The notes: generated from the letters alone by a model not told the origin. A stretch of 21,859 nt of DNA from a virus (IMGVR_UViG_3300044993_000274:1-21859), one strand, 5' to 3'. Counted from the first letter of the stretch, positions 158-20,481 are shown. Made by a program: numbers and translations.

Positions 158-160
158 ACG

Positions 161-1138
161 TTACCCATTATAGGGTTTGTAGTCCGGGCAGGTCATGCAG
201 CTCCGGTTCGCGCCGGGGCACGTCCGGAGCTTGGTCGTGTAGTCGCCGTACAGGTTACACCGGTGGGCGGTCGACCCGCACGGGGCGTTGGGCATTTTTT
301 CGCCCAGATGGACGCACGGGTTACGGACCCTTCTAAGCTCGTTTCGGTCGATTCTCGGAGCGGACAGGGCGGGCAAAACGAGTGACGACTCCGGCGGGGC
401 CAAAGTGAGTAGCGACTCCGGCGACCCCGTGCTTTCCGGGGCGATCGCCATAAAACCACCGCCGCCCTCGCCCTCGCTTATGGAGCAGAACGCGCTGAAC
501 GGCATCCTGTAGCAGCCCCAAATATGGTCTAAATTGTCTACCACTAATTCTAGTTCCCCTGACACCGGACTGCTGTCATTGTAGTATCCACTGAAAAACC
601 AACTGCCGCCCAAGGCTCCACACAACCACGGCGGTCTTGCGAACGGGTCAGCTTGACAACCAAGCGGATGGGGGATGCAACAGGTCCATGCGTAAACGAG
701 TATACTTATGTAACCGGTATCACATCGAACTTCGACGGTGCCCCCGGTATAGAACTCATGGCACACCCACTCATGAGGAGGCACAGGGGTGCTCACGATG
801 ATCGGGTCGATGTACCCGATCCACAATCTTAAAGTACAAGTCCCGTGTACCCCGTTGATGATATACGGCTCACAGACGACGGTCTTGTTTTCCAAATGTT
901 TCCAGCTGACATACGGGCTACAGTTCCCGCATATGCCGCCCGGGGTGCCCGTAATCTGATGCGTAGGACAGTTGATGACTCTACCCAAGCAGTCGAGCAT
1001 CCCCGGCTGCGGGACCCCCTCCCCGATAGTGACGACCATGTTGCTGTTAACGCACCAGTTACATTGGCACGGGCCGCCGCCCCCGCCGCCGCCCCCGCCG
1101 CAACAACAGCCACCAGACGGTAACGATATTGTTGACAT
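161..1138 (-). CDS. Cys-rich protein with poly-Gly tract, unknown function
   Basis: A 325-residue protein with 26 cysteines. Near the N-terminus is a CCC triplet (11-13), nine glycines (14-22) and a CxCxxC cluster (24-29). Further pairs are spread along the chain (70/73, 153/154). The C-terminal 50 residues form a compact module with Cys at 275, 287, 294, 307, 314 and 317, including CVHLG and CMTCPDY, which looks like a metal-binding or disulphide-rich domain. The ATG overlaps the stop of the upstream gene (TAATG), so it is translated as part of the tail operon. The middle of the gene is visibly richer in A/T than its neighbours, suggesting separate origin. Position after tape measure and two other tail-region genes suggests a tail-tip, receptor-contact or late accessory protein. 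I do not recognise the family. Confidence 0.8.
   Translation of the reverse strand: MSTISLPSGGCCCGGGGGGGGGPCQCNWCVNSNMVVTIGEGVPQPGMLDCLGRVINCPTHQITGTPGGICGNCSPYVSWKHLENKTVVCEPYIINGVHGTCTLRLWIGYIDPIIVSTPVPPHEWVCHEFYTGGTVEVRCDTGYISILVYAWTCCIPHPLGCQADPFARPPWLCGALGGSWFFSGYYNDSSPVSGELELVVDNLDHIWGCYRMPFSAFCSISEGEGGGGFMAIAPESTGSPESLLTLAPPESSLVLPALSAPRIDRNELRRVRNPCVHLGEKMPNAPCGSTAHRCNLYGDYTTKLRTCPGANRSCMTCPDYKPYNG
167..196 (-). promoter_or_regulatory. Promoter of the near-leaderless family (left-edge gene)
   Basis: On the minus strand ATGACC (191-196) is followed after 18 bases by a perfect TATAAT (167-172), then nine bases ending AACGT and the ATG at 157. It overlaps the 3' end of the Cys-rich gene. 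Spacing and layout match the signals before portal, protease and the 57-aa gene. Confidence 0.6.
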
Positions 1139-1806
1139 TACACATTGCCGGTAATTGTTATTGTCGCAGTATTGTTAGTACACGTCCAGTTCGTCATGAG
1201 GCCCGGGGCAATGATGGCGACGAACACCGGGACGCCCGTCGAGGTAATTCGGTCTTGGACGACGGCCGGGACACGGGTATTCGTCAAAAACCCGGACGGG
1301 GGGTTGCGGTCGGACGGGAGCGGGCCGCCGTTCGGGTTGATTAGGCGGACAGACCCCCCAAAGCCTGACCACACACCCGTATTAGCGTTGTACCGCTCGA
1401 CGTTAGCTGGGTATCCCCCGCCTACGGCCGGCCCGGTCGGTCTCAGGAAGCGGACGGCATACGGGGCGCGGGAGCGGAGGCGGTAGAGCTGCGGGAATCG
1501 AGGGTGCCGTTGCGCCTCGGCCTCCTCGCCGACGAAGAACGGGTACTCTCTGTCCGAGACGCCCCACCATATAGTACCGTTCGACCGCCGGCCGCCGTGC
1601 AAGTCCGTTTCGGCCCCGGTAACATAGTTGAGATTCTGTTCCCTAAACCCGTACCGCACCTGGGCCGGCGGGCCGGTCACAGGGACGATGTGCGTGATGA
1701 CGACCGGGAACCAGTCCGGGTCGTCCGTATACGGGGTGCCGCCGACGAACCCGACGGGCGAGCCGGTCACTGAGGCAGACAGGACTCGGCTCGGCTCAGA
1801 AAGCAT
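1138..1806 (-). CDS. Unknown protein in tail-tip region
   Basis: A 222-residue protein, rich in Gly, Pro, Tyr and Trp, with a beta-strand character and many short Asn/Thr-rich turns. It ends in a Thr/Ile/Asn-rich strand (TITGNV). No signal peptide or membrane helix is seen. Its stop shares a base with the next start (TAATG), so the two are probably coupled. Upstream there is a 45-base gap to the 353-aa gene that contains a small inverted repeat (CCGGT/ACCGG), without a T-run. By position it could be a minor tail or baseplate component. The family is not recognised. Confidence 0.75.
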   Translation of the reverse strand: MLSEPSRVLSASVTGSPVGFVGGTPYTDDPDWFPVVITHIVPVTGPPAQVRYGFREQNLNYVTGAETDLHGGRRSNGTIWWGVSDREYPFFVGEEAEAQRHPRFPQLYRLRSRAPYAVRFLRPTGPAVGGGYPANVERYNANTGVWSGFGGSVRLINPNGGPLPSDRNPPSGFLTNTRVPAVVQDRITSTGVPVFVAIIAPGLMTNWTCTNNTATITITGNV

Positions 1807-1851
1807 ACCGTTAACCCGTAGTACGCCCGGTAAGACTAACCGGCCGCGTCG

Positions 1852-2913
1852 TCACGTCACACTGAACAAGTTGACAAACTCCCGCTCGTTGAATAGCGAG
1901 TACCTGTCCGGGATGCCGCCCGGGGGATACCACGTCGTCCCAGCCCCAACAAAATACAAACCCGAGTTGCCCGCATTAGATCGTCCACTTCCTGGCGGGA
2001 CCGGATCGACGTAGAACTTGTAGTTGTGCCCCTTCGGGTCATACCGGAACGTAAACTCGATGTCCCACTCGACACTCGGGCTCACCCACGTCACCGGGCC
2101 GCCCGGGAAAGGCGTGTTGAACAGCGTGAACGGGGCCGGCTTGCGGATCGGCCGCCACGACTTCAGTAACAGCGTCCCGGCCGGGAACGTCAGGAACGGC
2201 GTCTTGTTAACAATCCCCTGGTACGGGACCATCGACGGGTTGTTCGGGTTGCCGACCATCCGCAAGAGCCACGGGCCGGGGGAATACACGTCGAATATCT
2301 CCGCCGGCAGCCGCTTCCACGTCACCTGAAAATCAATCATCGGGAATATCTTCGGCACGTTGTACCCGACCGGGAGTGTCGCACTCCCGCCGAACGGCGT
2401 CCCGGACTGGGCGATAAAGTTCAGCGTGTGGCCCGGCATGGTGAACACCTCCTCCGTCGGCTGCGGCGAGTCGCCCCAGTCCACATACCGGAGGTATTCC
2501 TGGTCCGACGGGCACTCGTGGTCTTCGAGCAGCTTGTACATCGGCCGCTCGTAGTTTAGCTCCAAGATCGCCTTGTCGTAAGCGGAACCGATCGACTGGT
2601 CGGAAAGCGGGGCGTACACCGGCCGCCGCTGGCCACGCTTGCTGACAAACTTATGATTCCTGATAAGCGACACACGCGTACAAATAAGCGTCGTGTCGTC
2701 CGGGTGAGACATGGGCAAAAGCCGCTCCAGCCGCCCGTTAGCGATCCGCGAGTACCCGAGGTAATGCTGGGCCGCCAGGTGGGCCTCACTCCACAAGACG
2801 GAGACCGTCCGGGTGACGGACACCTCCCCGATGGCGAGCGTGGACCGGGTGGACGTGCCGTCCCGGGTGCCCACCTCCACGACCCGGGTCAGGACCGGAC
2901 GCTGGATCGGCAT
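1852..2913 (-). CDS. Probable minor tail / distal tail protein
   Basis: A 353-residue soluble protein directly after the tape measure gene, whose stop it overlaps (TAATG at 2913). In siphovirus gene order this slot usually encodes the distal tail or tail-hub protein. The sequence is beta-rich with aromatic residues throughout (WSEAHLAAQHYLGYSR, PWLLRMVGNPNNPSMVPYQG) and the C-terminal third is Pro/Gly/Tyr rich. The assignment rests on position and general character; I cannot point to a diagnostic motif. The small overlap suggests translational coupling to the tape measure gene. Confidence 0.7.
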   Translation of the reverse strand: MPIQRPVLTRVVEVGTRDGTSTRSTLAIGEVSVTRTVSVLWSEAHLAAQHYLGYSRIANGRLERLLPMSHPDDTTLICTRVSLIRNHKFVSKRGQRRPVYAPLSDQSIGSAYDKAILELNYERPMYKLLEDHECPSDQEYLRYVDWGDSPQPTEEVFTMPGHTLNFIAQSGTPFGGSATLPVGYNVPKIFPMIDFQVTWKRLPAEIFDVYSPGPWLLRMVGNPNNPSMVPYQGIVNKTPFLTFPAGTLLLKSWRPIRKPAPFTLFNTPFPGGPVTWVSPSVEWDIEFTFRYDPKGHNYKFYVDPVPPGSGRSNAGNSGLYFVGAGTTWYPPGGIPDRYSLFNEREFVNLFSVT

Positions 2914-4520
2914 TACTGACGCCCCGGCCGGATTTCCCGGCGGCTCTCGCTCCGCTGCTCCTCCGCGACCGCGAGTAACTCTTCGGAAGTCTTCAACGCC
3001 TGCCGCTGAATCTTGAGCAGCTCCTGCTCGAACGGGCTGGCGTTCAGCCCGGCGAGCTGGGCCTGGCGGCCGATGTCCGCGATGTTGACGGATTCCGCCT
3101 TCGGCCCGAGTCCCCGGCGTAACTCCATCACCGCCAGCCGGAACATGTCGTTGAACCGGTTCCCGCCGCCCCGGGGACGGTCGGTCATGACGGCCTCCCC
3201 GTCAAACGTCCCGGCCCCGCCCTCGGCACGGCCGCCCCGACCGGTCAGCCGTTCCTGGTTCTTCTCCGTCCGATCCGTGATCGCTTGCCAGCCGGCCGAG
3301 GCTACCGTCTCGCCTACCGCCATAGCGGCGGCGGCGGTCGGGCTTTGCCCGACGACCGCCTTGGCGGCCGCTGCCAGTAAGGGGCCGAGGTTTGTCGTCC
3401 ACGCCCCGCCCATCGCCATCTTAGTAAGCGGCGAGTTGTAGACCGCCATGAACCCGTCAACAAGTGCCCTCGTGGCCCCGACGGCAAGTTCGATCGTCGT
3501 GACGAACAGGGCCAACGCCCGGACCGTCCCGGGGATGACCACCTCGCCCAGTTGCTTCGACGCCTCACTGAGCGGGCCGGCCAGTTCGCCGGCTACGGAC
3601 ATGACGGCCGCCGCCAGGCTCAGGAACAGGGGAAGTAGAACTAGCCCGATCACGCTCGCAAGCACCTGATGCGCCTTACCGAGCACGGAGTACCCGCTCG
3701 TCTGAGAGTTGATCGCACTCGACATTAGGGCGACGGGGCTCAAATAGCGGGTGATCGACTTGGCGAGCGTGTCGAATACGGTCGCCCCGGCCTTGAACAG
3801 TGCCAGCCCGGCGGCCGCGACGACCCCGACGACGGCCCCGCCGACCGCCCCGAGCGGGCCGCCAACGGCCCCGAGAGTGCCGCCGGCCCGCGCCCCCACA
3901 GCCACCCCGCCGACCGCACCCGTCGCGGCCCTCGCCCCGGCCTTCGACCCGACCTTCGCCCCGGCGACCGCCCGCCGGACCCAACGGGGGGCCTTTTCCA
4001 GCCGACGGCCGAGCCAGGCTTTCGCCCGACCCGTCTGCCGGCCGGCCCAGTCCGTCATACTCCCCACGGCCGTCCGAACGGGCGACTGGCCGGGGGTGAC
4101 GCCCCGGGCCGCGAGCGCCCGGCGGCCGGCCTCGGCGAGCGTCCGCAACACCTCGGCGAGCTGCTGTGTTAACGAAGGGTCTTTCGCCGCGTCCTCTTGC
4201 CGGGCACGAACGGCCGCCTCGGCGGCCCGGCCGGCCTCGTCACCGTCGGTCGGCTTGCGGGCGGGCGGCGGGGGTTGCACGACGACCGGGCGGGGCGGGT
4301 CGGGGGTAGCGGCAAAGGCCGCCGACGGGTCGGCCGGTGAGGGCAGGCCCGCCGCCACCGCCCGGGTCGCCCGCTGAAACTGGTCGAACGTGTCGGTCAG
4401 CTTGGCGACCAGCTCCGAGTTGGTCCGCACGGCCCCGGTCAGGCGGGCGATCTGCCCGCCAAGGTACGCCTCCGCCTCGGCCTCTTTAGTCGGTTTAGGC
4501 TGCTCGGGGGTGTCGGTCAT
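2913..4520 (-). CDS. Tail tape measure protein
   Basis: A 535-residue protein that sets tail length during assembly and is carried inside the tail tube. The N-terminal third is Ala/Arg/Glu-rich and helical with a Pro-rich linker near residues 75-90. A long Gly/Ala-rich stretch (about 185-250) and strongly hydrophobic helices (about 225-250 and 285-315) follow, typical of tape measure proteins that later interact with the membrane. The C-terminal quarter is charged and helical. It begins with ATGA overlapping the stop of the chaperone extension, the classical place for a tape measure gene. It is short for the class, so a short tail is expected. The identity is well supported by context; the sequence itself is low complexity. 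Confidence 0.85.
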   Translation of the reverse strand: MTDTPEQPKPTKEAEAEAYLGGQIARLTGAVRTNSELVAKLTDTFDQFQRATRAVAAGLPSPADPSAAFAATPDPPRPVVVQPPPPARKPTDGDEAGRAAEAAVRARQEDAAKDPSLTQQLAEVLRTLAEAGRRALAARGVTPGQSPVRTAVGSMTDWAGRQTGRAKAWLGRRLEKAPRWVRRAVAGAKVGSKAGARAATGAVGGVAVGARAGGTLGAVGGPLGAVGGAVVGVVAAAGLALFKAGATVFDTLAKSITRYLSPVALMSSAINSQTSGYSVLGKAHQVLASVIGLVLLPLFLSLAAAVMSVAGELAGPLSEASKQLGEVVIPGTVRALALFVTTIELAVGATRALVDGFMAVYNSPLTKMAMGGAWTTNLGPLLAAAAKAVVGQSPTAAAAMAVGETVASAGWQAITDRTEKNQERLTGRGGRAEGGAGTFDGEAVMTDRPRGGGNRFNDMFRLAVMELRRGLGPKAESVNIADIGRQAQLAGLNASPFEQELLKIQRQALKTSEELLAVAEEQRSESRREIRPGRQ

Positions 4521-5723: not shown

Positions 5724-5732
5724 GGATACCTC

Positions 5733-6146: not shown

Positions 6147-6149
6147 GGC

Positions 6150-6611: not shown

Positions 6612-6612
6612 A

Positions 6613-6948: not shown

Positions 6949-6996
6949 ACGGTACCGTCCGGCACACCCTCCCCCGACGGCCGCCCGGCCGAACGG

Positions 6997-7206: not shown

Positions 7207-7410
7207 TTACACCTCGGTGACACTGAACGGGTGAACCGTACTGATGATGCCACACGTAGCTTTGTACTTGTCCTCCGCGTCCTTCCGGTCCCACGCCTCG
7301 ACGACCAGCTCCGGGTTGTCTTTGAGCGAAACCCGGTACTTCTTGGTCGGCACGGTCGGGTTTTCCGGGTCGGCCTTTGCCGGCGGGTCGGTCTTCTTCG
7401 GCTCGGGCAT
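7207..7410 (-). CDS. Small protein downstream of capsid gene, unknown
   Basis: A 67-residue protein. The longest frame opens at 7482, but the ATG at 7410 is preferred because AGAGGTG lies about eight bases upstream and because the longer form would overlap the capsid gene. The first 20 residues are Pro/Lys/Asp-rich and probably disordered. The remainder (KYRVSLKDNPELVVEAWDR and so on) forms a strand-helix-strand unit ending HPFSVTEV. It may bind DNA or capsid, but no family is recognised. Confidence 0.7.
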   Translation of the reverse strand: MPEPKKTDPPAKADPENPTVPTKKYRVSLKDNPELVVEAWDRKDAEDKYKATCGIISTVHPFSVTEV

Positions 7411-7438
7411 AGCAAGCACCTCTGAGTAAAGCCTGACG

Positions 7439-8665: not shown

Positions 8666-8705
8666 GGTTAGACACTCCAAGCGTTGTGATCGGGTCAGGG
8701 TATCG

Positions 8706-9206: not shown

Positions 9207-9244
9207 AATTTTACACCTCTGTCAGTGGGTCCGGCGGGTCCGGG

Positions 9245-10336
9245 TTAGTCGGCTGCGGCCAACGCGGCGGCGATCCTCTTCACCTCGTCCGCCTCGTCAA
9301 GCGGCTTCTCACGATACGGGGTCCGCCCGGCCGACCGGGGGCCGCCGACCAGCTTCGCCCGGTCGGCGATCATCCGGTCGGCGTGGTCCTCGTCCCTGGC
9401 GTTAGCCAGGTCGTCACGGAACTGTTCGGTAATGTGGTCAGGCCGGAGCACCTTAGCCGCCCTGGCGATCCGGGCGGCCGTCCGGTCCTTGATCGCCTGC
9501 TCCCGGAGCTTCTGGCCGGCCCGCTTGGCGAGCGGGTCAGAACTCCGGAGCAAAGCCTCGGCCAGCTTCTCGTCCGGCACGTCATCCGGGGTATCGTCGT
9601 CGTCGTCCGGGTCTTCGGACCCCTCGATCCCGTCCCCGTCGGCGTCAGTCCCGTCGATCATCTTGAGCAAGGCATTAACCTTCGCCTTGACATCCGCCAG
9701 TTCGAGTTTGCCGTTCTTAAGGTCCTGGAGTAGCGCCTCAACGGCATCGATCAGGTGGTCCTTGTGACCCTCCACCGTGGGCACGGTAACCGGGTCCGCC
9801 GGGCCAGTCAGCGTCTCGCCCATGTCCGCCCTCTCGTACTGCTCTTTGAGGTTACACGTCGCCGGGCTGTCCACCAGATCGACGGAGTAAAGCCGGTTCA
9901 GCCGCTTGACCGAAAGCCCGGTACGGGTCCGCTCGCAATCGCCGTCGGCGTCGATCGACAGGCCGATGGCGTCCGGGTCGTTGTGCACATGCCACTTGAA
10001 CGACTCGGCGAACTGGTGCGCCGGGTTGTACCGCAGCTCCTTAGCGTACGCCTTGCCGTCCTTCTTATACAGCCCGTGAAGCCGGCCGAACCGGTCCCGG
10101 ATCGCCCGCCCGGTCGCCCCGTCCGGGGCGTGATCGAGGTAGACGGACGCGCCCTCGGCCAGCCGGATCGCGTCGTCGATGGCCGCCTCGGTGTAGGTCC
10201 GGCGGTTCCGCGAGGTCCGGCCCAACACCGGTACGTCACGAAGGATACCGGCGGCCGGGTCGAACCGGCCAGAGTCGGCCTGACCGAAAGCGACCGCCTC
10301 GGAAAGGCGTACTCTGACTGGACGGTTAACACTCAT
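9245..10336 (-). CDS. Head maturation protease with scaffold-like C-terminal domain
   Basis: A 363-residue protein in two parts. Residues 1-165 form a small beta domain with features of prohead proteases: VYLDHAPDG containing His69, AIGLSIDADG containing Ser127, and the strand SVDLVDSPAT. These fit a catalytic His and Ser followed by an acidic residue. The remainder is helical and charged, as in proteins where protease and scaffold are fused. An acidic insert (about 229-252, DGTDADGDGIEGSEDP and a run of Asp) resembles a calcium-binding loop. The ATG at 10336 stands nine bases after TACAAT and there is no Shine-Dalgarno. The gene is first in the protease-decoration-capsid block. The protease family (gp21-like versus HK97-like) is left open. 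Confidence 0.8.
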   Translation of the reverse strand: MSVNRPVRVRLSEAVAFGQADSGRFDPAAGILRDVPVLGRTSRNRRTYTEAAIDDAIRLAEGASVYLDHAPDGATGRAIRDRFGRLHGLYKKDGKAYAKELRYNPAHQFAESFKWHVHNDPDAIGLSIDADGDCERTRTGLSVKRLNRLYSVDLVDSPATCNLKEQYERADMGETLTGPADPVTVPTVEGHKDHLIDAVEALLQDLKNGKLELADVKAKVNALLKMIDGTDADGDGIEGSEDPDDDDDTPDDVPDEKLAEALLRSSDPLAKRAGQKLREQAIKDRTAARIARAAKVLRPDHITEQFRDDLANARDEDHADRMIADRAKLVGGPRSAGRTPYREKPLDEADEVKRIAAALAAAD

Positions 10337-10345
10337 ACGCTAGGT

Positions 10346-10375
10346 ATTGTAAGCTAGGACCTAGGCAAAGTTTAG
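10346..10375 (-). promoter_or_regulatory. Promoter of the near-leaderless family (protease)
   Basis: TACAAT (10346-10351) stands nine bases before the ATG at 10336. The matching upstream hexamer at 10370-10375 is CTAAAC, the weakest of the set. The 18-base spacer includes an 11-bp palindrome (CTAGGACCTAG at 10354-10364) that overlaps the portal stop codon and could be an operator. Confidence 0.5.
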
Positions 10376-12244
10376 TTTTTTTTCAGCCGATAATCGCTGT
10401 TCGCGGAGCAAGTCGGCCGGCGGCCGCTTAGCCGTGTCCGGCGAGAGTAGCGAGTCGAGCGGGCTCTCAGAAGGCGTTTGGTGGCCGAACGGCCCGGACG
10501 GCCCGTCGGGCTGCCCGCCCGCCCCCGGTGACGCCGGCGGCCCGGCCGGTTGCGACGGGTTAAGACCCTTCGCCGTGCGGTCCACGCCCCCGGCAATAGG
10601 CAGTAACCGTTCGGCGTCTTCCGCCGAAAAGCCCATCAGGGCCAGAAGTGCCACGGCCGCCGCCCGGGACACGTTGCCCGCCTGGTATTCTTTCTGGACC
10701 GTCAGGATCGCCGTCGGGTCGTCGGCCAGCCGCGCCCGCCGCTTGCGGCTTTCCTCGGCCGCCAGGTGGGCGGCCTCCGCGTCCGGGTCCAGCCCGATCT
10801 CCTCCCGGATCGTGCGGACCGACTTGACCCCGGCCGCGTTGTACCGCTCGTTCGTGACCGCCTCCGACTGCTTGTCCCGGGTTTCGAGCGACGGGCCGGT
10901 ACACTTGACCGAGACGCACTCGTACACGTCGGCCGGGAGCAGCCCGCACTCGACCGCGTGACCGATGGCACGCCAGGCGAGCGACTTGTTCGGCCCGAAC
11001 CGCCCCGACCCGAACAGCGAACACAGCCGCGCCTGTTCCCGCTTGAACGCCCTTAGCGTCGGGGCCTCGATCACGAACGCGTTAGAGTACTTCGCGTCGG
11101 CCAGGCCGGTCAGCATCCACTCGGGCATGTGCAGCCGGGAGGCGACCGCCCGGAGGTCGGCCTGGATCGCCTCGACGTACGACGCCGCGTCCAGGTTTGC
11201 GGCCGGGAACTCGTAGTCGGTGTTCTGGCCGGTCGTCAAAATCGTCCCGTTCCGCAGCCGCTCGACGTTTAGGCTTTCGCCCGTCACCGGGTCGTTCACC
11301 CTCGCGGCGGTCACCGTCTTGAGCAGCCCGGCCGCACTGTCGTTCGTCACCCCGGCAATCTTCCGGATCAGGGCGATTTTCGCCCGGGTCTTCGCCATCG
11401 AGGCGAGGGACGCCAGCATCTCCTCCGCCCGGCGGAGGTTCCGTTCGACCGGGTACAGGGTCGGCAGGCCGCGTTTCGACGACCGCTTGACGTTCCGCTT
11501 AAGGTGCAGGACGTACTTCGCGGGCACCGGCTCGGGGTCGAGAGAGTCCAGCGGCTCGCTGACGACCCAGTACCGTTTCGGCGTCTCGACGTCATGCGGG
11601 ACAGTCTCGATGCCGAACGACAGTTCTGGGTCCCACTCCTCACCGGTCGGGGCGCGGACGTGTTCCGGTTCCACCGCCCGCACGTCAACGAACCCGTCGT
11701 TCCGGGGGAACCAGCGGAGGAACGCCTCCCCGTCCTCGTGGGCGGCAAAGTCCGCCTCCGCCGCCCGCTCGGACAGGTCGCACAGGTCGTGCAGCTCGTC
11801 GAGGTAGTCCTGCACCCGGGCCGCCAGCCGGCGGTGCCGGGCGTCCTTGCGGTCAACCGGTGACGCGGTGAACGTCAGCCCGTCGCCCACGACGTAGTTC
11901 GTGTGGTTCCCGAGGGCGGCCAGGGCGAACTCGTTCGCGGCACAGAGGATTCGCGACCGGTCGCGGATGACCTTTAGCTCGGCCTGCGTCTGGTAGACGG
12001 GCAGGGCCTCGCCCCGCTTGCGAGAGTCCTGAAAAACGGGCGGGGCGTATACCGGGCCGGTCAGCCCGCCGGGCGACAACGGGTCGGAAAGGTCGAAGTT
12101 GAACTGGTCCCGGAAGTCGTACCCGAGCGACCCGTAAATGTCGAGCGTCGCCTCCTGGACACGCACGATACGTTCTAGTGTCCGTTCGATCCGTTTGGAC
12201 AGCGGGGGGGCGGTCAGCTCGGCGTCTGGCTCGGAGTGGGTCAT
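10361..12244 (-). CDS. Portal protein
   Basis: A 627-residue protein forming the ring at the capsid vertex through which DNA is packaged. Supporting features are an N-terminal helical arm, the segment FALAALGNHTNYVVGDGLTF, an acidic loading region (DYLDELHDLCDLSERAAEAD), and the conserved-looking helix preceded by HMPEWMLTGLADAKYSNAFV. The last 75 residues are Pro/Gly/Ser-rich and probably disordered. It begins with ATG at 12244, exactly nine bases after TACAAT, with no Shine-Dalgarno. An A8 run in the codons for the last residues could allow slippage but alters only the extreme C-terminus. It is followed by its usual partner, the head protease. Confidence 0.88.
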   Translation of the reverse strand: MTHSEPDAELTAPPLSKRIERTLERIVRVQEATLDIYGSLGYDFRDQFNFDLSDPLSPGGLTGPVYAPPVFQDSRKRGEALPVYQTQAELKVIRDRSRILCAANEFALAALGNHTNYVVGDGLTFTASPVDRKDARHRRLAARVQDYLDELHDLCDLSERAAEADFAAHEDGEAFLRWFPRNDGFVDVRAVEPEHVRAPTGEEWDPELSFGIETVPHDVETPKRYWVVSEPLDSLDPEPVPAKYVLHLKRNVKRSSKRGLPTLYPVERNLRRAEEMLASLASMAKTRAKIALIRKIAGVTNDSAAGLLKTVTAARVNDPVTGESLNVERLRNGTILTTGQNTDYEFPAANLDAASYVEAIQADLRAVASRLHMPEWMLTGLADAKYSNAFVIEAPTLRAFKREQARLCSLFGSGRFGPNKSLAWRAIGHAVECGLLPADVYECVSVKCTGPSLETRDKQSEAVTNERYNAAGVKSVRTIREEIGLDPDAEAAHLAAEESRKRRARLADDPTAILTVQKEYQAGNVSRAAAVALLALMGFSAEDAERLLPIAGGVDRTAKGLNPSQPAGPPASPGAGGQPDGPSGPFGHQTPSESPLDSLLSPDTAKRPPADLLREQRLSAEKKLNFA

Positions 12245-12253
12245 ACGTCGCCT

Positions 12254-12283
12254 ATTGTAATACGGTCCGAGCGAAACGGTCAG
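12254..12283 (-). promoter_or_regulatory. Promoter of the near-leaderless family (portal)
   Basis: CTGACC (12278-12283), an 18-base spacer and TACAAT (12254-12259) precede the portal ATG by exactly nine bases ending ACGT. It fills the 51-base gap after the tailspike gene. Confidence 0.6.
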
Positions 12284-12295
12284 CCCGTTGTCGGG

Positions 12296-14251
12296 TCACA
12301 CCCGCCGTCTGGCGAACTGTGGCGGGCAGTTGGTCAGGGCCGCGCCGGTCGCGGTCGTGGCGGCCGGCATATTTAAGGTCACTGTCCCGTCGGCCGCGAT
12401 GCCCAGCACCCGGGCACGGGTGACCCCGGGGAGGGACACGTAGTCGCCTTCCAACAGCTCTTCGACGGCCGACAGGCCGGTCAGGACCGGCGAACCGGCG
12501 GTCGTGTTACAGGTGAGCGATAGGACCCGGTCGGTCCCGGGGGCGCTACAGATATGAGGCAGCCCGCCGTTGAGCGTGAGTACCCGGTCGCCGAACTCGT
12601 AAGTCCCGGGCGGCGGGCCGCCGCCCGGGGTCCACTCGAACCCGCTCACCACGCCCGGCCGGGCCGGCTCCAGGGGGTGCGGGCGGACGGCCGAGAGCGC
12701 CGCCCCGTAGACCAACAGCCACGGGCTGGGCGGCTGCTGGTACGTCCCGCCGTACATCGCCGACCGCCAGTCGGCGAACTGGAGCAGGACCGACTCACCT
12801 CCGGCTACCGGCAAAGACAGCGGGTGCAAGACGGCCGGGGCGAACCCGTCGGGCACTTGGCGGAACTGGTCGATCCCGGCGGCAAAAAGTCTGGCCCACA
12901 GGCCGTCAGCCCCGCCGCCCCGGCGGACGTGGTGCGGGGAGGCGGCTTTGACGGCGAGGAACAGCCGGCCAGGCCCGGGCCGCCGGCCGACCGGCAGGAC
13001 GAACGCCGTCCCGGTACCGCGGAACGCCAGGCACGGGCCGTAAACCGGGTGCCGGTGCGGGTAAATGAGTCCCGTCCCACGGGTCAGGTTGCCGTCGTTC
13101 CCGGTCCCCCCGGCGTAAACGTATAACGGTTGTGAGACCGGCTCCAGCCGGCCCAGCCCGACCGGCGACTCGTACCGGTTCCCGCTTTCGGCCTTGGACG
13201 TGTCACGAATTTCGTGGGCGTCCCGTTCGATCGCGTCCACCAGCCCGCTCGTCGCCAGGGTCATGCCGGGCGACTTCTCGGAATAGACGGTCATGGGGTC
13301 AAGACTGCCCGACTGATTTTTGACCAGTACGTACCCGTTGCACGCGAACAGATAGACCGACCGGGGCTGATGCGCCCCGGCCGCCCCCGAGAACGGGTTG
13401 CGGATGACCGTTTGGTGCCAGTTCGGGTTGGATCGCGTCCCCCAGTTTTCCGACCACAGCTGCGATATGACGGTCGTCTGCGGGCCGGGGTTGTCGATCA
13501 GTACCCCGGTCGCCCCGTCGTACAGGGCCACCCCGTCCACCCCGGGGGCGAACCCCCACCCGCCCTCGGCGATGTTGCCCTGGAAGAGCAGGTTGCGGTG
13601 GCCGTCAAGCCAGTAGTCCGGGGCGTACCGCCTGTTTGCCGCGACGTGGGACCGGCACTGGACCACCCGCAGGGTACTGGTCGCGTGCGGCTCAAGGGTG
13701 CCCGGCCGCCAGCGGATCAGGCAGCCGAAGAACGCCTCACACCGCTCGACGGTCGGGATGATCGAGTAATCGGCCACCAGGTCAATCCCGTACCCGGGGG
13801 CCTCGGTCGATGCCGGGTCCGTCCACAGGTCCAGCCCGGACAGGTGGATGCGGTGAAACCGGCAGTAGTGGTCGCCGGTGTTATCGGTCGAGATACAGGC
13901 CGCCCCGCCCGTCCCGGCCGTCAGGGTGGCGTCCCGGATCGTGGCCCGGTGCGTCTGCCAGTCGTTCGGCCCGCCGTCGAAGAAGAACTGGAATACCGGC
14001 TGTCCGCCAGTCTGCTGGTGAAGATTAGCGACTTCCCGGCCGTCGAACATGACACTTCGGGTGACCGGCCACCGGCACGGGCCGGCGAAGGGGATCGGCG
14101 AGGCGGTGTCCCCGAGGATTGTGAGTGGGGGGCCGGAGTCGCCCACCGCCGCGTTCCAGGCGGCGGTGTTGGCTGTCCCGGAGTTTCCGGGCAATATGCC
14201 GATCTCGGCGAGCGTCTTGACGCCGCTGTAGGCGCCGGGCACGTTGGCCAT
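12296..14251 (-). CDS. Beta-helix tailspike-like protein
   Basis: A 651-residue protein. The longer open frame reaches 14497, but the start at 14251 (MANVPGAYSGV) shares a base with the stop of the fibre gene (TAATG), and sequence before it has no protein-like character. Residues 50-330 carry repeated short strands with Asn and Gly turns, such as HYCRFHRIHLSGLDLW, LRVVQCRSHVA and NLLFQGNIAEGG, the look of a right-handed parallel beta-helix (pectate-lyase-like) as in tailspikes. The C-terminal part is Pro/Gly-rich with a TYEFGDRVLTLNG strand unit. It probably binds or cuts a surface polysaccharide. Active-site acids cannot be assigned by eye. Its position between terL and portal is unusual. 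Confidence 0.7.
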   Translation of the reverse strand: MANVPGAYSGVKTLAEIGILPGNSGTANTAAWNAAVGDSGPPLTILGDTASPIPFAGPCRWPVTRSVMFDGREVANLHQQTGGQPVFQFFFDGGPNDWQTHRATIRDATLTAGTGGAACISTDNTGDHYCRFHRIHLSGLDLWTDPASTEAPGYGIDLVADYSIIPTVERCEAFFGCLIRWRPGTLEPHATSTLRVVQCRSHVAANRRYAPDYWLDGHRNLLFQGNIAEGGWGFAPGVDGVALYDGATGVLIDNPGPQTTVISQLWSENWGTRSNPNWHQTVIRNPFSGAAGAHQPRSVYLFACNGYVLVKNQSGSLDPMTVYSEKSPGMTLATSGLVDAIERDAHEIRDTSKAESGNRYESPVGLGRLEPVSQPLYVYAGGTGNDGNLTRGTGLIYPHRHPVYGPCLAFRGTGTAFVLPVGRRPGPGRLFLAVKAASPHHVRRGGGADGLWARLFAAGIDQFRQVPDGFAPAVLHPLSLPVAGGESVLLQFADWRSAMYGGTYQQPPSPWLLVYGAALSAVRPHPLEPARPGVVSGFEWTPGGGPPPGTYEFGDRVLTLNGGLPHICSAPGTDRVLSLTCNTTAGSPVLTGLSAVEELLEGDYVSLPGVTRARVLGIAADGTVTLNMPAATTATGAALTNCPPQFARRRV

Positions 14252-15378: not shown

Positions 15379-15382
15379 GGTA

Positions 15383-15556
15383 TTACTCTTGAATCAGGAA
15401 GTCACCGGCTTCGGTCGTTAGGTAATCACCGGTTTCGGTCAGTAGCCTGTCAGTCGGTGGCGGCGGCGGCGGTGGTGGGGGCGGCGGCGGCGGTGGGGGC
15501 ACCGGCACGAACGATTTGCCGGTCGGGCCGGCCACGAACCAGGCGTAACGGCTCAT
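15383..15556 (-). CDS. 57-aa protein with 15-proline run and TE(T/A)GD repeats
   Basis: The true start is the ATG at 15556 (MSRYAWFVAGPTGKSF), nine bases after TACAAT; the longer open frame to 15610 has no support. After residue 20 follow 15 consecutive prolines, then two imperfect repeats LLTETGDYL and LTTEAGDFL, a motif type found in phage fibre and virion proteins. The proline run would be a rigid stalk and would also need elongation factor P for efficient translation. It is the first gene of the fibre operon and is probably a small virion or linker protein. No enzymatic function is seen. Confidence 0.7.
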   Translation of the reverse strand: MSRYAWFVAGPTGKSFVPVPPPPPPPPPPPPPPPTDRLLTETGDYLTTEAGDFLIQE

Positions 15557-15565
15557 ACGCCACAA

Positions 15566-15595
15566 ATTGTACGACGTTCGGCCGCGAGAGATCAG
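15566..15595 (-). promoter_or_regulatory. Promoter of the near-leaderless family (fibre operon)
   Basis: CTGATC (15590-15595), 18 bases and TACAAT (15566-15571) are followed by nine bases ending GCGT and the ATG at 15556. Confidence 0.6.
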
Positions 15596-15625
15596 GCCAA
15601 CACTTCGCAATCAAACCAAGTTCGG

Positions 15626-15653
15626 ATTATCGACAAGTCTAATTTTCTGTCAA
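15626..15653 (-). promoter_or_regulatory. Sigma-70-like promoter upstream of fibre operon
   Basis: A perfect TTGACA (15648-15653) is separated by 16 bases from GATAAT (15626-15631), five of six matches to the consensus -10. It would give a leader of about 65 bases before the ATG at 15556. It lies just downstream of repeat copy 1. The fibre operon would then have two promoters. Confidence 0.6.
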
Positions 15654-15728
15654 GTAAAATATTAGCGCGCCGATCAGTCAAAAAACTTTAGTTTCGGCGA
15701 TAGACAAGGTACAGCAAAAGATAAGAGG

Positions 15729-15872
15729 AAAGATAGGGGTATAGATATAGTAAATAATATAATATATATATTTTTTGTATTTATTGTTGTTATTGCAGGC
15801 TGTCTCGATCCCTTTACCTCTCCTAGAGAGGTAGGCGCAATAACAACAAGAAATGCAATAATTCGGTCAAGG
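15729..15872. repeat. 144-bp direct repeat, copy 1 (AT-rich tract plus long hairpin)
   Basis: This block matches 19374-19517 at 137 of 144 positions with no gaps. It holds an A/T tract (about 15738-15780) and an inverted repeat with arms 15776-15796 and 15837-15857 (19 of 21 pairs). A smaller hairpin, TACCTCT-CCTAG-AGAGGTA, lies inside the loop. The function is unknown. It lies in the 463-base gap between terL and the fibre operon. Most of that gap is covered by the repeat, two promoters and a 43-codon frame. Confidence 0.95.
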
Positions 15873-15998
15873 CGGCTGAATTAGATGACGGATACCATAT
15901 CCGGCATCAAATGTGTCGGCAACAGGACGATCTGCCGGCACAGACGGGTACGCCGAGACGAACGTGCATCCGTTACTAGGCTGGGTGTGACGGGTCAT
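15867..15998 (-). CDS. Possible 43-aa protein after terL
   Basis: An open frame of 43 codons plus stop (MTRHTQPSNGCTFVSAYPSV...), too short to call from length alone. In its favour, its ATG at 15998 stands nine bases after TGTAAT (16008-16013), with CTGACC 18 bases further up, as in the leaderless promoter family. Against it, the CTGACC lies within terL codons and so could be chance, and the peptide resembles nothing known to me. Its stop codon lies inside the first bases of repeat copy 1. Confidence 0.3.
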   Translation of the reverse strand: MTRHTQPSNGCTFVSAYPSVPADRPVADTFDAGYGIRHLIQPP

Positions 15999-16007
15999 AC
16001 TGTACCA

Positions 16008-16037
16008 ATTACAAGATGCTCAACCGTAATAGGTCAG
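16008..16037 (-). promoter_or_regulatory. Candidate promoter overlapping terL 3' end
   Basis: CTGACC (16032-16037), 18 bases and TGTAAT (16008-16013), nine bases before an ATG at 15998. It is the least certain member because it overlaps terL coding sequence and its -10 has one mismatch to TACAAT. Confidence 0.35.
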
Positions 16038-18623
16038 GGCCACCGCGTCCGCCACGTCCGGCGAACAGCCGAGTAACTCCTTAACCCGGGCCTTCGGCAA
16101 CAGCCGTTTCACCCCGTCATCCTCATACGGGGTAACAGTCAACTGCCGTTTGAGCGTCGCCAGGTCGGCCGACGGGAGCCGTGAAAAGTCGAGTATACCC
16201 GCAACGGCCAGGGCAGCAAGCCGGAAGTACAGGTACGAACGCATCCGCGCTACCTTCGGGTCCGGGCTGGCCGCGCTCATCAACAGTTCAACCGTAGTCA
16301 GCCGGCCCCGCGCCTGATCGACCACACCTCCGCCGTACCCGCCGGTCCCGTCAACAATGAACGTAGCCTTACCGCGTGGCCGGGACAGCCGGTCGGCCCA
16401 AAGGGCGTCCAGTTCTACCGCCCGGTCGGCGATCCAACTCGTGTCCCGCTTGGCGTGCGTCTCGACATGAAGCAAGACCGGCCCGCACCGGACCCCGAAG
16501 GCCGTCTTGTCGTCCCCGAACCGGGCCACGTCACACCCGATGGCGACCGGCCAGTCTGGCTGTAAGGCGCAAGGCGGCCGGTTGGCGCACCGGTCGATCA
16601 GGGCGGGGGTAAACAGCGTGGCCGTCGGGGTCAGCGGCCAGCGGCCTAAGACCTGGGCCTCGAAAGCCGGGGTCTTCGGCCGCCACCACTGGCCCGGCCG
16701 CGACAGGCAGGCTACGGCCGCGTCGGAAAGGCCGTAGGCCAGCCACCGGTCCCGGGCCCGGCGGACGTCCGTCCCGTCCGGCGGGAACCGGAAGTCGGTC
16801 AGCGGGTCCGGGTCATCGACCGGTTCGCACTCCGCCAGGAGCCGGGCGACCAGCCCGGCGAGCCGGATCGCCGCCGGGATCGGCGGCGGGTCGCCGGCCA
16901 GCTCGGCGAGAATGTTGGGGTGCTCTAAGGCGCTCAGCCGGACCACGTGCCAGGTGTCGGACTCCTCCTCGGCGTACACCCACGAGGCCGGGTCGTTCGG
17001 GTTGTAAAAGCACAACCAGGCGTGCCCGGGGTGCGGCTGGGCCATCGTCCGCCCCCGGTCGGCGAACGCCCGACCGACCCCCGTCGCCTCGTCGAAGATC
17101 AGGCACAAGTGCTCGGCGTGCCGGCCCTGGAAGGCGTCCGGGGTGTTCGCCGTAAACCCGTGAACAAAGTGGTCGTGCGCGTCCTGGAGCCGGGTGTCTT
17201 TCGGCAAAAACCCCGGGTCGCCCGGCCGCACCGTCCGCAACTCCTTGAACATCAGGTCCCGGACTTGCTTGTACACCGGTGCGGTAATCAGCGTCGTTGA
17301 CGGGCGATAGCAGTCGTAAAAGTAACTGGCGTAACACGCCCCGGCAAACGTGTTGTGTTCGTAAACGCAAGTGACGAACGTGTGACGGTCGGGTACGGTT
17401 ATGGCGACCGACCGCTGGGCGGGCAGGGGTTCGACGGACTCGACCTTCTCCCACCGGCAGCCGGGCGGGGCGTTTAGCGTGACCCAATCCGGCCGCCTGT
17501 CAACGGCGGAAAGGTATCTCGCCCGTTCGACCTCGGCCTCGGCCCCGAATATCCCGACGGCCTCGGCGAACCGCACCACGTCCGGGCCGGCCGGGACGGT
17601 CAGTTCCCAGGGGGTCAGAACCGACCGGATACCCTGACGGGCGAGCAGCTCTTGAACGTCCCGGCAGAGCGGCTCGGTTTCCGCTCGAAACCAGACCTCG
17701 CCGGACGGGGACACCCACCCCCGGGCGGCGAACAGGCGGGACAGGAAGAGCCGTTGGCCCCGCCCGCTGGCCCCCATCACCGCCGCCGGCAGGTGCCCGT
17801 CCCACGACCAGTTCCGGTACATGCCGAGCCGCCGGAGCAAGTCGAGTACCCCGCACGCCCCGTTCCGGCGGATGCCGTCCGCCCGGGAGACGCGGTAAGT
17901 GTCGGGCCTCTCGGTCGGGACGAGTACCGTTCCCATTTCGGCCGCGTACCGCCTGAACTCGTCGAGTACGGGTCCCGCCTTCGAGGTGAACGTGGCCGGG
18001 CTTTTCTTCGTGTACCCGCCCCCGGCCATATACGCGACGAGGCACAGTTCGGCGTCCGACAGGGTGCCGGCCCCCTCGTGGGGCCGCAGGACCGGGACGG
18101 CCACCAGGTCTCCGGCCTTGAGCTTGCCCGCCTCAACCCACCGGCCGGGCGGGACGACGGGTTCCCACGAGGCGGGGAACAGGCCCCGGGTTGACCAGAC
18201 CGGGTGGTTAGCCGTCCGGCGGATCAGCTCGCCGGTCGCCAGCGTGACCGCGACCATCGGTTGAGGCTCGTCCCAATCGGCGAACGCCGCCGCCATCACC
18301 GGCCGGCCCGCCGGGTCGAGGGTCAGCAGCCCGAACGTGGTGCCGGCCAGCTCCCGGGCGGGGGCCATCGGTCCCAACGCTAGCGGGATGCGGTCGTCCG
18401 GGTGGACACACTTGCCCTGGTTGTTCGCCGACGGGACAAGGACGCGATAGGGCGGGGTCTCGGCTAACGCCCAGATGCGTTCCTGTTGGGGCGTCGGGGT
18501 GCGGCGGAGGACGTCCCGGGCGTAGTCCCCCGGCCGGCCGACGTACCGGCCCAGGCGGGGGTCAGGCCCGGGCCGCCGGAGGGCAGCCACCTTCGCTTCG
18601 AGGCGGGACAGAAGGCGGCCCAT
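16020..18623 (-). CDS. terL: Terminase large subunit, intein-containing precursor
   Basis: An 867-residue precursor; removal of the 353-residue intein (72-424) leaves 514 residues, normal for TerL. The ATPase motif reads SANNQGK, intein, TFAGA, restoring a Walker A when spliced. Walker B is LCLIFDEAT (506-514), and FYNPN (539-543) follows as the coupling segment. The nuclease domain has acidic residues at D698 (GCDVARFGDD), D758 (VDGTGGYGG) and D859 (SPDVADA). It packages DNA into the prohead through the portal and cuts the concatemer. I start at ATG 18623, which overlaps the stop of the previous gene (TGATG); a longer frame to 18662 exists but would overlap that gene by 40 bases. Without splicing the ATPase cannot form. 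Confidence 0.95.
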   Translation of the reverse strand: MGRLLSRLEAKVAALRRPGPDPRLGRYVGRPGDYARDVLRRTPTPQQERIWALAETPPYRVLVPSANNQGKCVHPDDRIPLALGPMAPARELAGTTFGLLTLDPAGRPVMAAAFADWDEPQPMVAVTLATGELIRRTANHPVWSTRGLFPASWEPVVPPGRWVEAGKLKAGDLVAVPVLRPHEGAGTLSDAELCLVAYMAGGGYTKKSPATFTSKAGPVLDEFRRYAAEMGTVLVPTERPDTYRVSRADGIRRNGACGVLDLLRRLGMYRNWSWDGHLPAAVMGASGRGQRLFLSRLFAARGWVSPSGEVWFRAETEPLCRDVQELLARQGIRSVLTPWELTVPAGPDVVRFAEAVGIFGAEAEVERARYLSAVDRRPDWVTLNAPPGCRWEKVESVEPLPAQRSVAITVPDRHTFVTCVYEHNTFAGACYASYFYDCYRPSTTLITAPVYKQVRDLMFKELRTVRPGDPGFLPKDTRLQDAHDHFVHGFTANTPDAFQGRHAEHLCLIFDEATGVGRAFADRGRTMAQPHPGHAWLCFYNPNDPASWVYAEEESDTWHVVRLSALEHPNILAELAGDPPPIPAAIRLAGLVARLLAECEPVDDPDPLTDFRFPPDGTDVRRARDRWLAYGLSDAAVACLSRPGQWWRPKTPAFEAQVLGRWPLTPTATLFTPALIDRCANRPPCALQPDWPVAIGCDVARFGDDKTAFGVRCGPVLLHVETHAKRDTSWIADRAVELDALWADRLSRPRGKATFIVDGTGGYGGGVVDQARGRLTTVELLMSAASPDPKVARMRSYLYFRLAALAVAGILDFSRLPSADLATLKRQLTVTPYEDDGVKRLLPKARVKELLGCSPDVADAVALTYYG
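17352..18410 (-). other. Intein in TerL Walker A, with degenerate LAGLIDADG domain
   Basis: The 353-residue insert begins with Cys1 (CVHPDDR), has the block B motif TANHP (67-71) and ends with block F/G VPDRHTFVTCVYEHN, penultimate His and terminal Asn, followed by Thr as the +1 residue. All residues needed for standard class 1 splicing are present. The middle (about 120-300) resembles a LAGLIDADG endonuclease with both helices: LVAYMAGGGY (124-133) and LFLSRLFAARGW (221-232). In active enzymes the first would read GDG and the second DADG or similar. Here the acidic catalytic positions are Gly131 and Arg230, so cleavage is probably lost. The splicing part looks intact. Confidence 0.93.
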
Positions 18624-18970
18624 CACGTCTCGCCCGGCAGGGGTTCGCGGAGGACGACGCACCGGATGTCAACGACACTTTGGACCGTCCGGTCCGGCCC
18701 GGTTCGGCAGAGCCAGTCCGGCCGGGCGACTTTCCGCCCGGCCCTCAGGTCGGCCAACGCCCGGGCGTGATACAGGACGAGTGTGGCGTACAACGCCCCC
18801 TCACGAAACGCCCAGTCCGACGCCTCCCCGACCGCCCTTGTCAGCTGTTCTGCCAGGTAGACCGGCCGCGCGTCGAACCGGCCGGCGACGGTCGTTAACA
18901 CGTCGGCCGGGTACGTGTACCCGGTGGCCGGCGTCGGCACGCCGGCGGCGACGAGCCTGGCGACGAACAT
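18623..18970 (-). CDS. Small protein before TerL, possible protease-fold relative
   Basis: A 115-residue protein starting at ATG 18970 (MFVARLVAAG); the open frame extends to 19042 but overlaps the upstream gene. A G-rich stretch (AAGGGTAGGG) precedes the ATG. The order GYTYPADVLTTVAGRFDARP, VYL, then GALYATLVLYHARALAD resembles the protease domain at 9245-10336 (RRTYTEAAIDDA, VYLDHA, GKAYAKELRYNPAHQFAE). If related, it lacks the catalytic His (VYLAEQ) and Ser motifs, so it would be a non-catalytic single domain. This is a by-eye resemblance and may be chance. It is translationally coupled to terL by TGATG. Confidence 0.75.
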   Translation of the reverse strand: MFVARLVAAGVPTPATGYTYPADVLTTVAGRFDARPVYLAEQLTRAVGEASDWAFREGALYATLVLYHARALADLRAGRKVARPDWLCRTGPDRTVQSVVDIRCVVLREPLPGET

Positions 18971-18975
18971 CGGCC

Positions 18976-19284
18976 CTACCCTTGGTTGTCGAACGGGCGG
19001 TCCAGGCGGTACTTCCGGTCGTTTACGTGTTCTTCGTAGCACTCGGCGAAGATGCTCAGGTTGCCGACCGCTTCGACCAGTTCGAGGAACTCGCCCAGCC
19101 CTGACGGGTCGAACGGCACCCGGACCTTCGCTTCCACCAGTTCCGGGGCCATGCGGAGCAAGCCCTCCCGGGCGTGCCTGACGATCTTCCGGAGTTCCTC
19201 CCCGGCGGGTGACCTCTCGGCCTCCTGACCCGACGACAACCCGCAGGCCGACAAAGACCGGTCGGTCAGGTGATTAACGGCCAT
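18976..19284 (-). CDS. Hypothetical helical protein, first gene of terL block
   Basis: A 102-residue protein starting at ATG 19284 with a good Shine-Dalgarno (TGGGAG, about eight bases upstream); the longer frame to 19329 has no such support. It is mostly helical: a charged helix EELRKIVRHAREGLLR, then a PFDPSGLGEFLELVEAVGNL helix pair, and a polar basic end. No known motif is seen. It is five bases from the next gene and shares the operon with terL, so a packaging role is possible but unproven. Confidence 0.7.
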   Translation of the reverse strand: MAVNHLTDRSLSACGLSSGQEAERSPAGEELRKIVRHAREGLLRMAPELVEAKVRVPFDPSGLGEFLELVEAVGNLSIFAECYEEHVNDRKYRLDRPFDNQG

Positions 19285-19373
19285 AACGTCTCCCAGATGC
19301 GGCTTTTTTTGGACGCCAGATACCGGCAAAAAAACGGCATCGGAACTAGCTAAAACAGGTAGCAGATAATGGT
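19285..19373 (-). other. Leader of the terL operon with U-rich loop hairpin
   Basis: The 89 bases between repeat copy 2 and the first gene contain, on the minus strand, GATGCCG, a T7-GC loop, and CGGTATC, a seven-pair stem with one G-U. An A7 run near the Shine-Dalgarno follows. It could be an attenuator-like or stability element, but no function can be shown. Confidence 0.4.
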
Positions 19374-19517
19374 AAAGATAGGGGTATAGATATAGTAAAT
19401 AATATAATATATATATTTTTTGTATTTCTTGTTGTTATTGCAGGCTATCTCGATCCCTTCTCTTCTCCTAGAGAGGTAGCTGCAATAACAACAAGAAATG
19501 CAATAATTCGGTCAAGG
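19374..19517. repeat. 144-bp direct repeat, copy 2 (AT-rich tract plus long hairpin)
   Basis: Same orientation as copy 1 and 3.5 kb away, with seven substitutions and no gaps. The arms 19421-19443 and 19480-19502 pair at 22 of 23 positions and the stem can continue with seven more pairs (CTATCTC against GAGGTAG), leaving a pyrimidine-rich loop of about 21 bases. It lies between the terminator after terS and the terL operon leader. No protein-coding frame is credible in it. Confidence 0.95.
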
Positions 19518-19544
19518 GGGATCACTCATGGCGCCAGATATGGC

Positions 19545-19570
19545 AAAAGGCCAGTGAAAATTCACTGGCC
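19545..19570 (-). terminator. Rho-independent terminator after terS
   Basis: On the minus strand a perfect ten-pair stem, GGCCAGTGAA-TT-TTCACTGGCC (19549-19570), is followed at once by TTTT (19545-19548). It stands 48 bases after the terS stop. The T-run is short, so the efficiency may be moderate. Confidence 0.75.
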
Positions 19571-19617
19571 AACTCGCCGGCAGACGGTATGGCTTCATGT
19601 TTATCATGGCGATCAAG

Positions 19618-20055
19618 TTACTCGGCCGACTTCTCCGCCGGGACGGCCAGCGGTAGGTCGATCCCGTGCGCCGCCAAAGCCGCCTCGATGGCAGCCATTC
19701 GCGGCGCGACCAACGCCTCGTGACGAATCTTGAACAGGCAGTCGATTAGCTTCGGGGCGAGCGTCGCCCGGATCGAAACGTGGATCGGCTTTTTGTCATT
19801 CCGTAGCTTCCCGTCCACTACAATCTGTCGCATCACCTCGACAACCCCATCGACCACCCGAACGGCGTTCAGGGCGGTCGGCCCGAGTGCGGCCCCGCGA
19901 AGTTCGGTCAGCTGGGCCTTGAACATCGGGTCGGCCATCTTGGCGTAGACCGTCCGCATGTCGATGTCGAGCGCCTTGGCCACCTTGCTCGGCGGGGTGT
20001 ACTCCGCCAGCATGGCCATCATGGCACTCTCGTCAACCCGTTTACCCTGTGGCAT
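19618..20055 (-). CDS. terS: Terminase small subunit-like HTH protein
   Basis: A 145-residue protein with a helix-turn-helix at about residues 21-41 (PPSKVAKALDIDMRTVYAKM), then DPMFKAQLTELRG and a long helical middle and end (HVSIRATLAPKLIDCLF). This order, DNA-binding N-terminus followed by an oligomerising helical part, is that of small terminase subunits that bind the packaging site. It is near terL in the expected order, although two small genes and repeat copy 2 intervene. It starts with ATG at 20055. No Shine-Dalgarno is clear; a CCAAT/ATTGG stem may cover the start. It could instead be a different phage HTH regulator, hence moderate confidence. Confidence 0.65.
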   Translation of the reverse strand: MPQGKRVDESAMMAMLAEYTPPSKVAKALDIDMRTVYAKMADPMFKAQLTELRGAALGPTALNAVRVVDGVVEVMRQIVVDGKLRNDKKPIHVSIRATLAPKLIDCLFKIRHEALVAPRMAAIEAALAAHGIDLPLAVPAEKSAE

Positions 20056-20081
20056 ACCAATAATCGTTAGTGAATTGGATC

Positions 20082-20096
20082 ACCCACAAAGTGGGT
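20082..20096 (-). promoter_or_regulatory. Leader hairpin of terS
   Basis: ACCCAC-TTT-GTGGGT is a perfect six-pair stem with a three-base loop in the roughly 50-base leader between promoter and terS start. There is no T-run, so it is more likely a 5' stabiliser or a protein-binding site than a terminator. Confidence 0.5.
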
Positions 20097-20109
20097 CAGT
20101 GTACGTTAC

Positions 20110-20250
20110 TTATTGTATGACCGTGCGGCGGGAAACGTCAGGGGGGATTCGCTCACGGGTCGGGTTGATTCGCGCCTCACCGTTGCCTTGTACCCCGTAT
20201 CCCCCTGTAGCCTTCCACTCAAACGCTTCCCAAATCCTTCGATGAGTTCT
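20110..20250 (-). pseudogene. Possible C-terminal remnant of a DNA methyltransferase
   Basis: This minus-strand frame reads RRIWEAFEWKATGGYGVQGN then GEARINPTRERI and then ends RRTVIQ. The GGYG-x-QG-x-G stretch with a following TRERI resembles, from memory, the tail of some phage DNA adenine methylases, which end in a RERIWFSPHC-like sequence. Here the expected ending is replaced. The frame is in another phase relative to the tetrapeptide-repeat frame before it. No catalytic motifs remain, so if correct it is a truncated remnant. A chance resemblance is quite possible. Confidence 0.3.
20112..20141 (-). promoter_or_regulatory. Promoter of the family, terS version with leader
   Basis: CTGACG (20136-20141), 18 bases and TACAAT (20112-20117), then nine bases ending AACGT. 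The triplet after it is ACA, so here the signal drives a normal leader of about 50 bases instead of a leaderless start. The -10 overlaps the end of the frame of the possible methyltransferase remnant. Confidence 0.6.
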
Positions 20251-20257
20251 TTTGAGA

Positions 20258-20461: not shown

Positions 20462-20481
20462 GGGGCCTTCGCTTTGCAAGT

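Follow-up and report, generated by a model that had tools for sequence, protein, structure and literature searches.

This locus raises the question of whether a signal that recurs before its gene blocks is a promoter class dedicated to late genes, and of where RNA synthesis and translation would begin on the units that it precedes. The window, that is, the whole stretch of viral DNA analysed, is a complete virus record of 21,859 bp with 65.5% GC in which the identified phage genes all lie on the minus strand. Along this strand, two sigma-factor genes (the only early genes within the window) are followed by small ORFs, terS, two small genes and terL, then by a 43-aa ORF, a 57-aa ORF, two long ORFs and the genes of the portal and the head protease, and finally by a small gene, the major capsid protein (MCP) gene, tail genes and a left-edge gene. 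Pfam/PHROG matches underlie the assignment of the sigma genes, terS, terL, portal and protease; MCP was assigned from its size, its place in the gene order and its synteny with late modules of Planctomycetia. The main genes are:

21605..21859, minus strand: 3' part of sigA, which runs past the record end
20967..21608, minus strand: sigB, 213 aa, with sigma-70 regions 2 and 4 (Pfam Sigma70_r4 1.3e-9, Sigma70_r2 2.1e-5)
19618..20055, minus strand: terS, the first gene after P-terS (weak PHROG match to terminase small subunit, E 0.0084)
15867..15998, minus strand: 43-aa ORF (orf43), predicted near-leaderless start
15383..15556, minus strand: 57-aa proline-rich ORF (orf57), predicted near-leaderless start
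10361..12244, minus strand: portal gene (Pfam Phage_portal_2 2.9e-20), predicted near-leaderless start
9245..10336, minus strand: head maturation protease gene (PHROG 8.7e-5), first of the block with MCP and the tail genes, predicted near-leaderless start
2..157, minus strand: left-edge gene, incomplete and running past the record end, predicted near-leaderless start

The host is probably a planctomycete bacterium. Of 398 Planctomycetia genomes, 54 encode a homologue of the window portal, with identities reaching about 40%, and the primase of a sister record (L003/L025) shows 68-78% identity to genes in Gemmataceae and Planctomycetia MAGs. Regarding this data, the virus seems to be a phage of Planctomycetia, with Gemmataceae as the probable host family. 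Two further features of the record were also observed. The Walker A motif of terL (16020-18623) is split by an intein with a LAGLIDADG domain (NNQGK/CVHP...VYEHN/T), and the ORF at 20219-20479, between the sigma genes and terS, carries degenerate repeats (GSLEGSLE-like; DNA TTCGAGA/TTCGA) that resemble a repeat stretch at 12530-13069 of the related contig L027.

A search of the minus strand for all T(A/G)(C/T)AAT boxes recovered the five sites that a previous sequence-only reading had reported, all of them where it had placed them, and a sixth at 16013 that was absent from its list. The six sites on the coding strand share the consensus (C/A)TGACC-N18-TACAAT-N7-GTA with fixed spacing:

20100..20141, minus strand: P-terS, CTGACG-N18-TACAAT-AAGTAACGTAC; the 9 nt past the -10 box are AAGTAACGT, then ACA
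15996..16037, minus strand: P-orf43, CTGACC-N18-TGTAAT-TGGTACAGT-ATG, with the -10 box at 16013, overlapping the 3' end of terL
15554..15595, minus strand: P-orf57, CTGATC-N18-TACAAT-TTGTGGCGT-ATG, with the ORF start at 15556
12242..12283, minus strand: P-portal, CTGACC-N18-TACAAT-AGGCGACGT-ATG
10334..10375, minus strand: P-protease, CTAAAC-N18-TACAAT-ACCTAGCGT-ATG
155..196, minus strand: P-left, ATGACC-N18-TATAAT-GGGTAACGT-ATG, lying within the 3' end of the gene before it (161-1138)

The spacer between the hexamers is exactly 18 nt in all six. The -10 boxes are close to TATAAT (four TACAAT, one TATAAT and one TGTAAT), and the -35 boxes follow (C/A)T(G/A)A(C/T/A)(C/G), a CTGACC-like form that matches TTGACA at no more than four of six bases. 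Invariant throughout are the T at position 2 and the A at position 4 of the -35 box, the T..AAT of the -10 box, and the G, T and A at positions 8-10 past it. The -35 form nTGACn proposed previously is right for terS, portal and the left-edge gene, and has to be widened for the protease (CTAAAC) and the 57-aa ORF (CTGATC); in the same way, the (A/G)CGT described before the ATG does not extend to the 43-aa ORF site, which ends in CAGT.

Since the motif was defined after the sites were seen, over-fitting was guarded against by a leave-one-out test and by the sixth site, which was new to the earlier reader. The two hexamers and the ten bases past the -10 box were combined into a weight matrix, which was rebuilt six times, omitting one site each time. 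Among the 43,623 positions of the two strands, the omitted site came first in every case, scoring 20.6-27.4 bits against at most 13.0 for any other position. With the full six-site matrix the sites scored 28.5-32.5 bits and the next-best window position 10.8, so that the motif occurs in the window only at the starts of structural or packaging blocks. The predicted enrichment of the nine-base spacing was also borne out: T[AG][CT]AAT-N9-ATG occurs five times, always on the minus strand, against 0.05 expected per shuffle, and none of 1000 dinucleotide shuffles reached five occurrences. No T(A/G)(C/T)AAT box precedes an ATG on the minus strand at any other spacing from 0 to 30. In a scan of the whole collection of viral contigs, the pattern TGAC-N19-TAYAAT-N6-CGTATG gave 21 single matches, in contigs unrelated to the phage and mostly AT-rich; the window holds two.

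Such a motif could in principle be a by-product of codon usage, or of a recent duplication of one upstream sequence, and two sites (172 and 16013) do overlap the coding region of the gene before them. However, the spacers and flanks are unrelated between the six sites, which are hence not recent copies, and the shuffles never reproduced the motif. On these two grounds this origin was rejected, its probability being close to nil, and the promoter family is almost certainly real.

Concerning the start region, the ATG lies exactly 9 nt past the -10 box at five of the six sites, and the distance from the first T of this box to the A of the ATG is 15 nt in all five. Alone among the six, P-terS is followed by a leader, as had been described before, and its length is about 47-49 nt; the site has GTA and lacks the ATG (GTACAC). 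Because terS keeps GTA without a start codon, this triplet belongs to the promoter and not to the start codon, and is most simply read as the start-site region of the promoter. By standard spacing, RNA synthesis begins 7-9 nt past the -10 box. The first nucleotide would then be the C, G or T of CGT, with G as the favoured purine, giving 5'-GUAUG, and the distance from the -10 box to the ATG would place the RNA start 0-3 nt before the ATG. As 15 nt exceeds the approximately 12 nt typical of leaderless genes, a leader of 1-3 nt is likelier than none. Near-leaderless starts are thus highly likely at five of the six units.

The anti-Shine-Dalgarno (anti-SD) energies are consistent with this. As claimed for the block starts, SD sites are missing at all promoter-led genes, where the energies range from -3.7 to +0.8 kcal/mol, none of them as strong as the random average of -3.9. 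The complementary claim that genes inside blocks have SD sites or overlaps was right in direction and too broad in extent, since only 10 of the 21 other starts reach -6 kcal/mol or better; internal genes without a clear SD probably rely on coupling. For four of the starts in this energy comparison (the genes at 7410 and 19284, MCP and the 57-aa ORF), the upstream windows were slightly shifted, by 1-9 nt. For portal, protease, the left-edge gene and orf43, no in-frame ATG, GTG or TTG lies upstream, where the frame closes within 17 codons, and no SD-led internal start was found in the first 40 codons. In terS, the sole internal start with an SD-like site is codon 40. The host may also have leaderless genes: in 95 Gemmataceae genomes, leaderless-type spacings of 5-9 gave 433 cases against 244 for a reversed-pattern control, and the same pattern at spacings of 25-29 gave 367 against 241, so that the excess is only modest. 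Separately, the terS leader contains a perfect inverted repeat at 20082-20096 (ACCCAC-TTT-GTGGGT) near the predicted 5' end; the leader folds no better than its shuffles (z -1.33). No Rfam match was obtained.

The conservation of (A/G)CGTA exceeds normal promoter needs, terS included. It could be explained if the stretch from the -10 box to the start codon were also an operator for a phage regulator (e.g., at ACGT), a dual function that would account for GTA. Nevertheless, symmetry is limited to a 4-bp ACGT core, found at three of the six sites, and no candidate regulator was identified, so that a dual element is very improbable.

The next point is which sigma factor could read these promoters. 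The window carries two sigma-70-family genes, which the sequence-only reading did not mention. They stand in tandem directly upstream of the late genes, with the sigB start overlapping the sigA stop (ATGA). The 281-aa ORF that contains sigB matches a PHROG sigma factor (1.3e-22), and a full-length sigA in the relative L003 (9654-10208) encodes 184 aa with sigma-70 regions 2 and 4. In E. coli sigma70, the region 4.2 residues TRERIRQ contact the -35 box. They are SKSRVGQ in sigB and TQRAVCC in sigA, and this large replacement fits an altered -35 box (CTGACC) together with a kept -10 box. An AlphaFold model of sigB was too poor to use (pLDDT 46). No sigB homologue was found in 398 Planctomycetia genomes at E 1e-12, in a search run without a positive control.

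Since the -10 box has the usual sigma70 form, the host housekeeping sigma might read the six near-leaderless promoters, perhaps with a phage activator, and the phage sigmas would then serve other promoters. TATAAT and TACAAT are standard for sigma70, CTGACC matches TTGACA at four of six bases with an 18-nt spacer, and a generic sigma70 scan picked up two of the six sites. However, the six share a non-consensus -35 box (C first and last), a spacer of exactly 18 nt and an unvarying GTA, features that the TTGACA-N16/17 promoters of the window and its relatives lack, and the two sigma genes adjoin the late block. Reading by the host factor is thus unlikely, and sigB and/or sigA probably recognize the six promoters.

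The host-type promoters come from the window and from its relatives, which were used for the early modules because the sigma genes are the only early genes in the window. The window example, which lies outside the family, is:

15626..15653, minus strand: host-type promoter TTGACA-N16-GATAAT (11 of 12)

The early-module sample comprised 29 kb of two related contigs, L025 and L027. The sigB of L025 shows 89% identity to that of the window; L027 is tied to the window only by an AT-rich repeat and by a primase with 96% identity to that of the L025 phage. Loose forms of the motif had no match in these early modules, and the best matrix scores were 14.7 bits in L025 and 9.8 in L027. Both carry TTGACA-N16-TATTGT upstream of a DnaB-like gene, and L025 additionally has TTGACA-N17-TAACAT. 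The late motif and the TTGACA-type promoters can therefore be told apart by sequence as two promoter kinds. The idea of a dedicated late class agrees with these results, as the motif is confined to the starts of structural and packaging blocks, is absent from the relatives' early modules, and differs from the TTGACA-N16 type found there and at 15653-15626. Late timing is itself likely from the gene content.

Moreover, none of 20 homologous late modules from Planctomycetia genomes carries the motif; the portals of these modules share 34-39% identity with that of the window over the aligned part. The best position there reached 17.3 bits, with the wrong -10 box, no start codon and a location far from the portal. 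The motif thus lacks cross-species conservation, and the promoter class seems to track the sigma-carrying lineage and not the late genes as such, which, for one lineage, agrees with a coupling between sigma factor and promoter. Among viral contigs, queries with portal, terL and MCP found no close late-module relatives.

Taken together, we propose that the six sites form one promoter class that would start the late transcription units for packaging, head and tail. RNA polymerase with a phage sigma factor (sigB and/or sigA) would bind the -35 and -10 boxes, and RNA synthesis would begin at or beside the invariant GTA, which lies 7-10 nt downstream of the -10 box. GTA merges into the start codon (GTATG) in five of the six units, so that the 5' end of the mRNA would fall 0-3 nt before the AUG and these five messages would be translated without SD, as leaderless mRNA. 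The core of this proposal, late promoters read by the phage sigma-RNA polymerase with RNA starting 0-3 nt before the ATG, appears reasonably probable from the sequence data. A more tentative extension, which seems less likely than not, is that the phage changes its mode of translation together with its sigma factor: a phage sigma would read promoters in which the start codon itself serves as the initiator, so that the main late structural units would be leaderless, with early and internal genes using SD sites or coupling.

Parts of this arrangement have precedents. The late promoters of phage 7-11 (GTAAtg-16-aCTA) are read by its own sigma factor gp47 (PMC8948821); as in the window phage, a bipartite motif precedes late genes, there is a phage sigma-70 relative, and early promoters are of host type, but the consensus differs, the host is Salmonella and leaderless starts are not mentioned (PMC8948821). 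In phiEco32, gp36-dependent middle and late promoters carry tAATGTAtA (PMC8948821, PMC4331800), and transcription starts 6-8 bp beyond this element (PMC8948821). This phage also combines its own sigma with few promoters before structural blocks, although its promoters have a single element without a -35 box, whereas those of the window phage have -35 and -10 boxes and a start codon fused to the predicted start site. Middle and late promoters of the Thermus phage P23-45 belong to the extended -10 class (PMC7403470), likewise a phage-timed class unlike the -10/-35 promoters of the host; however, they depend on host sigma and gp39, in contrast to the phage-encoded sigma proposed here.

On the translation side, a -10 box adjoining the ORF with leaderless mRNA has been described in Deinococcus-Thermus and many other bacteria (PMC12340547, PMC3160421), and bacterial leaderless genes are marked by a -10-like signal that lies some 12 bp ahead of the start codon (PMC3160421). 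The window sites resemble these genes in having the -10 box fixed a few bases before the start, no SD and a leader predicted to be short or absent. In contrast, those genes are chromosomal and defined by the -10 box alone (TANNNT), whereas the window sites also conserve a -35 box and an initiator and are restricted to phage late units. Planctomycetes are reported to have few SD sites and to show leaderless and/or S1 signals (PMC5397173), and according to one paper phage transcripts are often leaderless (PMC5312081). In the literature covered, which included few subscription papers, no report uniting phage-sigma late promoters and leaderless starts in one class was found, nor any paper on the transcription strategy of planctomycete phages. 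Together, the near-identical promoters, the candidate sigma pair and the single-base start predictions make up a model that can be tested directly, covering both late transcription and leaderless translation, for a phylum in which SD sites are reportedly scarce. If true, it would be a case of promoter and start codon acting as a single element.

The AT-rich repeat shared with the relatives spans roughly 150 bp and occurs at 15707-15875 and 19371-19520 in the window, 5116-5284 in L025 and 750-918 in L027. Its copies lie in different gaps between genes, share 90-97% identity, on par with or above that of the genes, and contain a 13-bp hairpin (TTGTTGTTATTGC/GCAATAACAACAA; fold z -4.8). A search of the species-level genome collection for its 22-base core gave no match; a mobile element, a terminator or another structured site are the candidates. 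In addition, the DEAD/ResIII helicase of L025 (9426-12227) and L027 (3822-6626) contains an insert that resembles an intein, and in L025 a LAGLIDADG match was scored. Finally, the related contig L031 (JAIXLE010000096.1), which carries replication genes as well as late genes, belongs to a MAG labelled Bacteroidales; this genome was drawn among Gemmataceae in the genome search, and the MAG is probably mislabelled.
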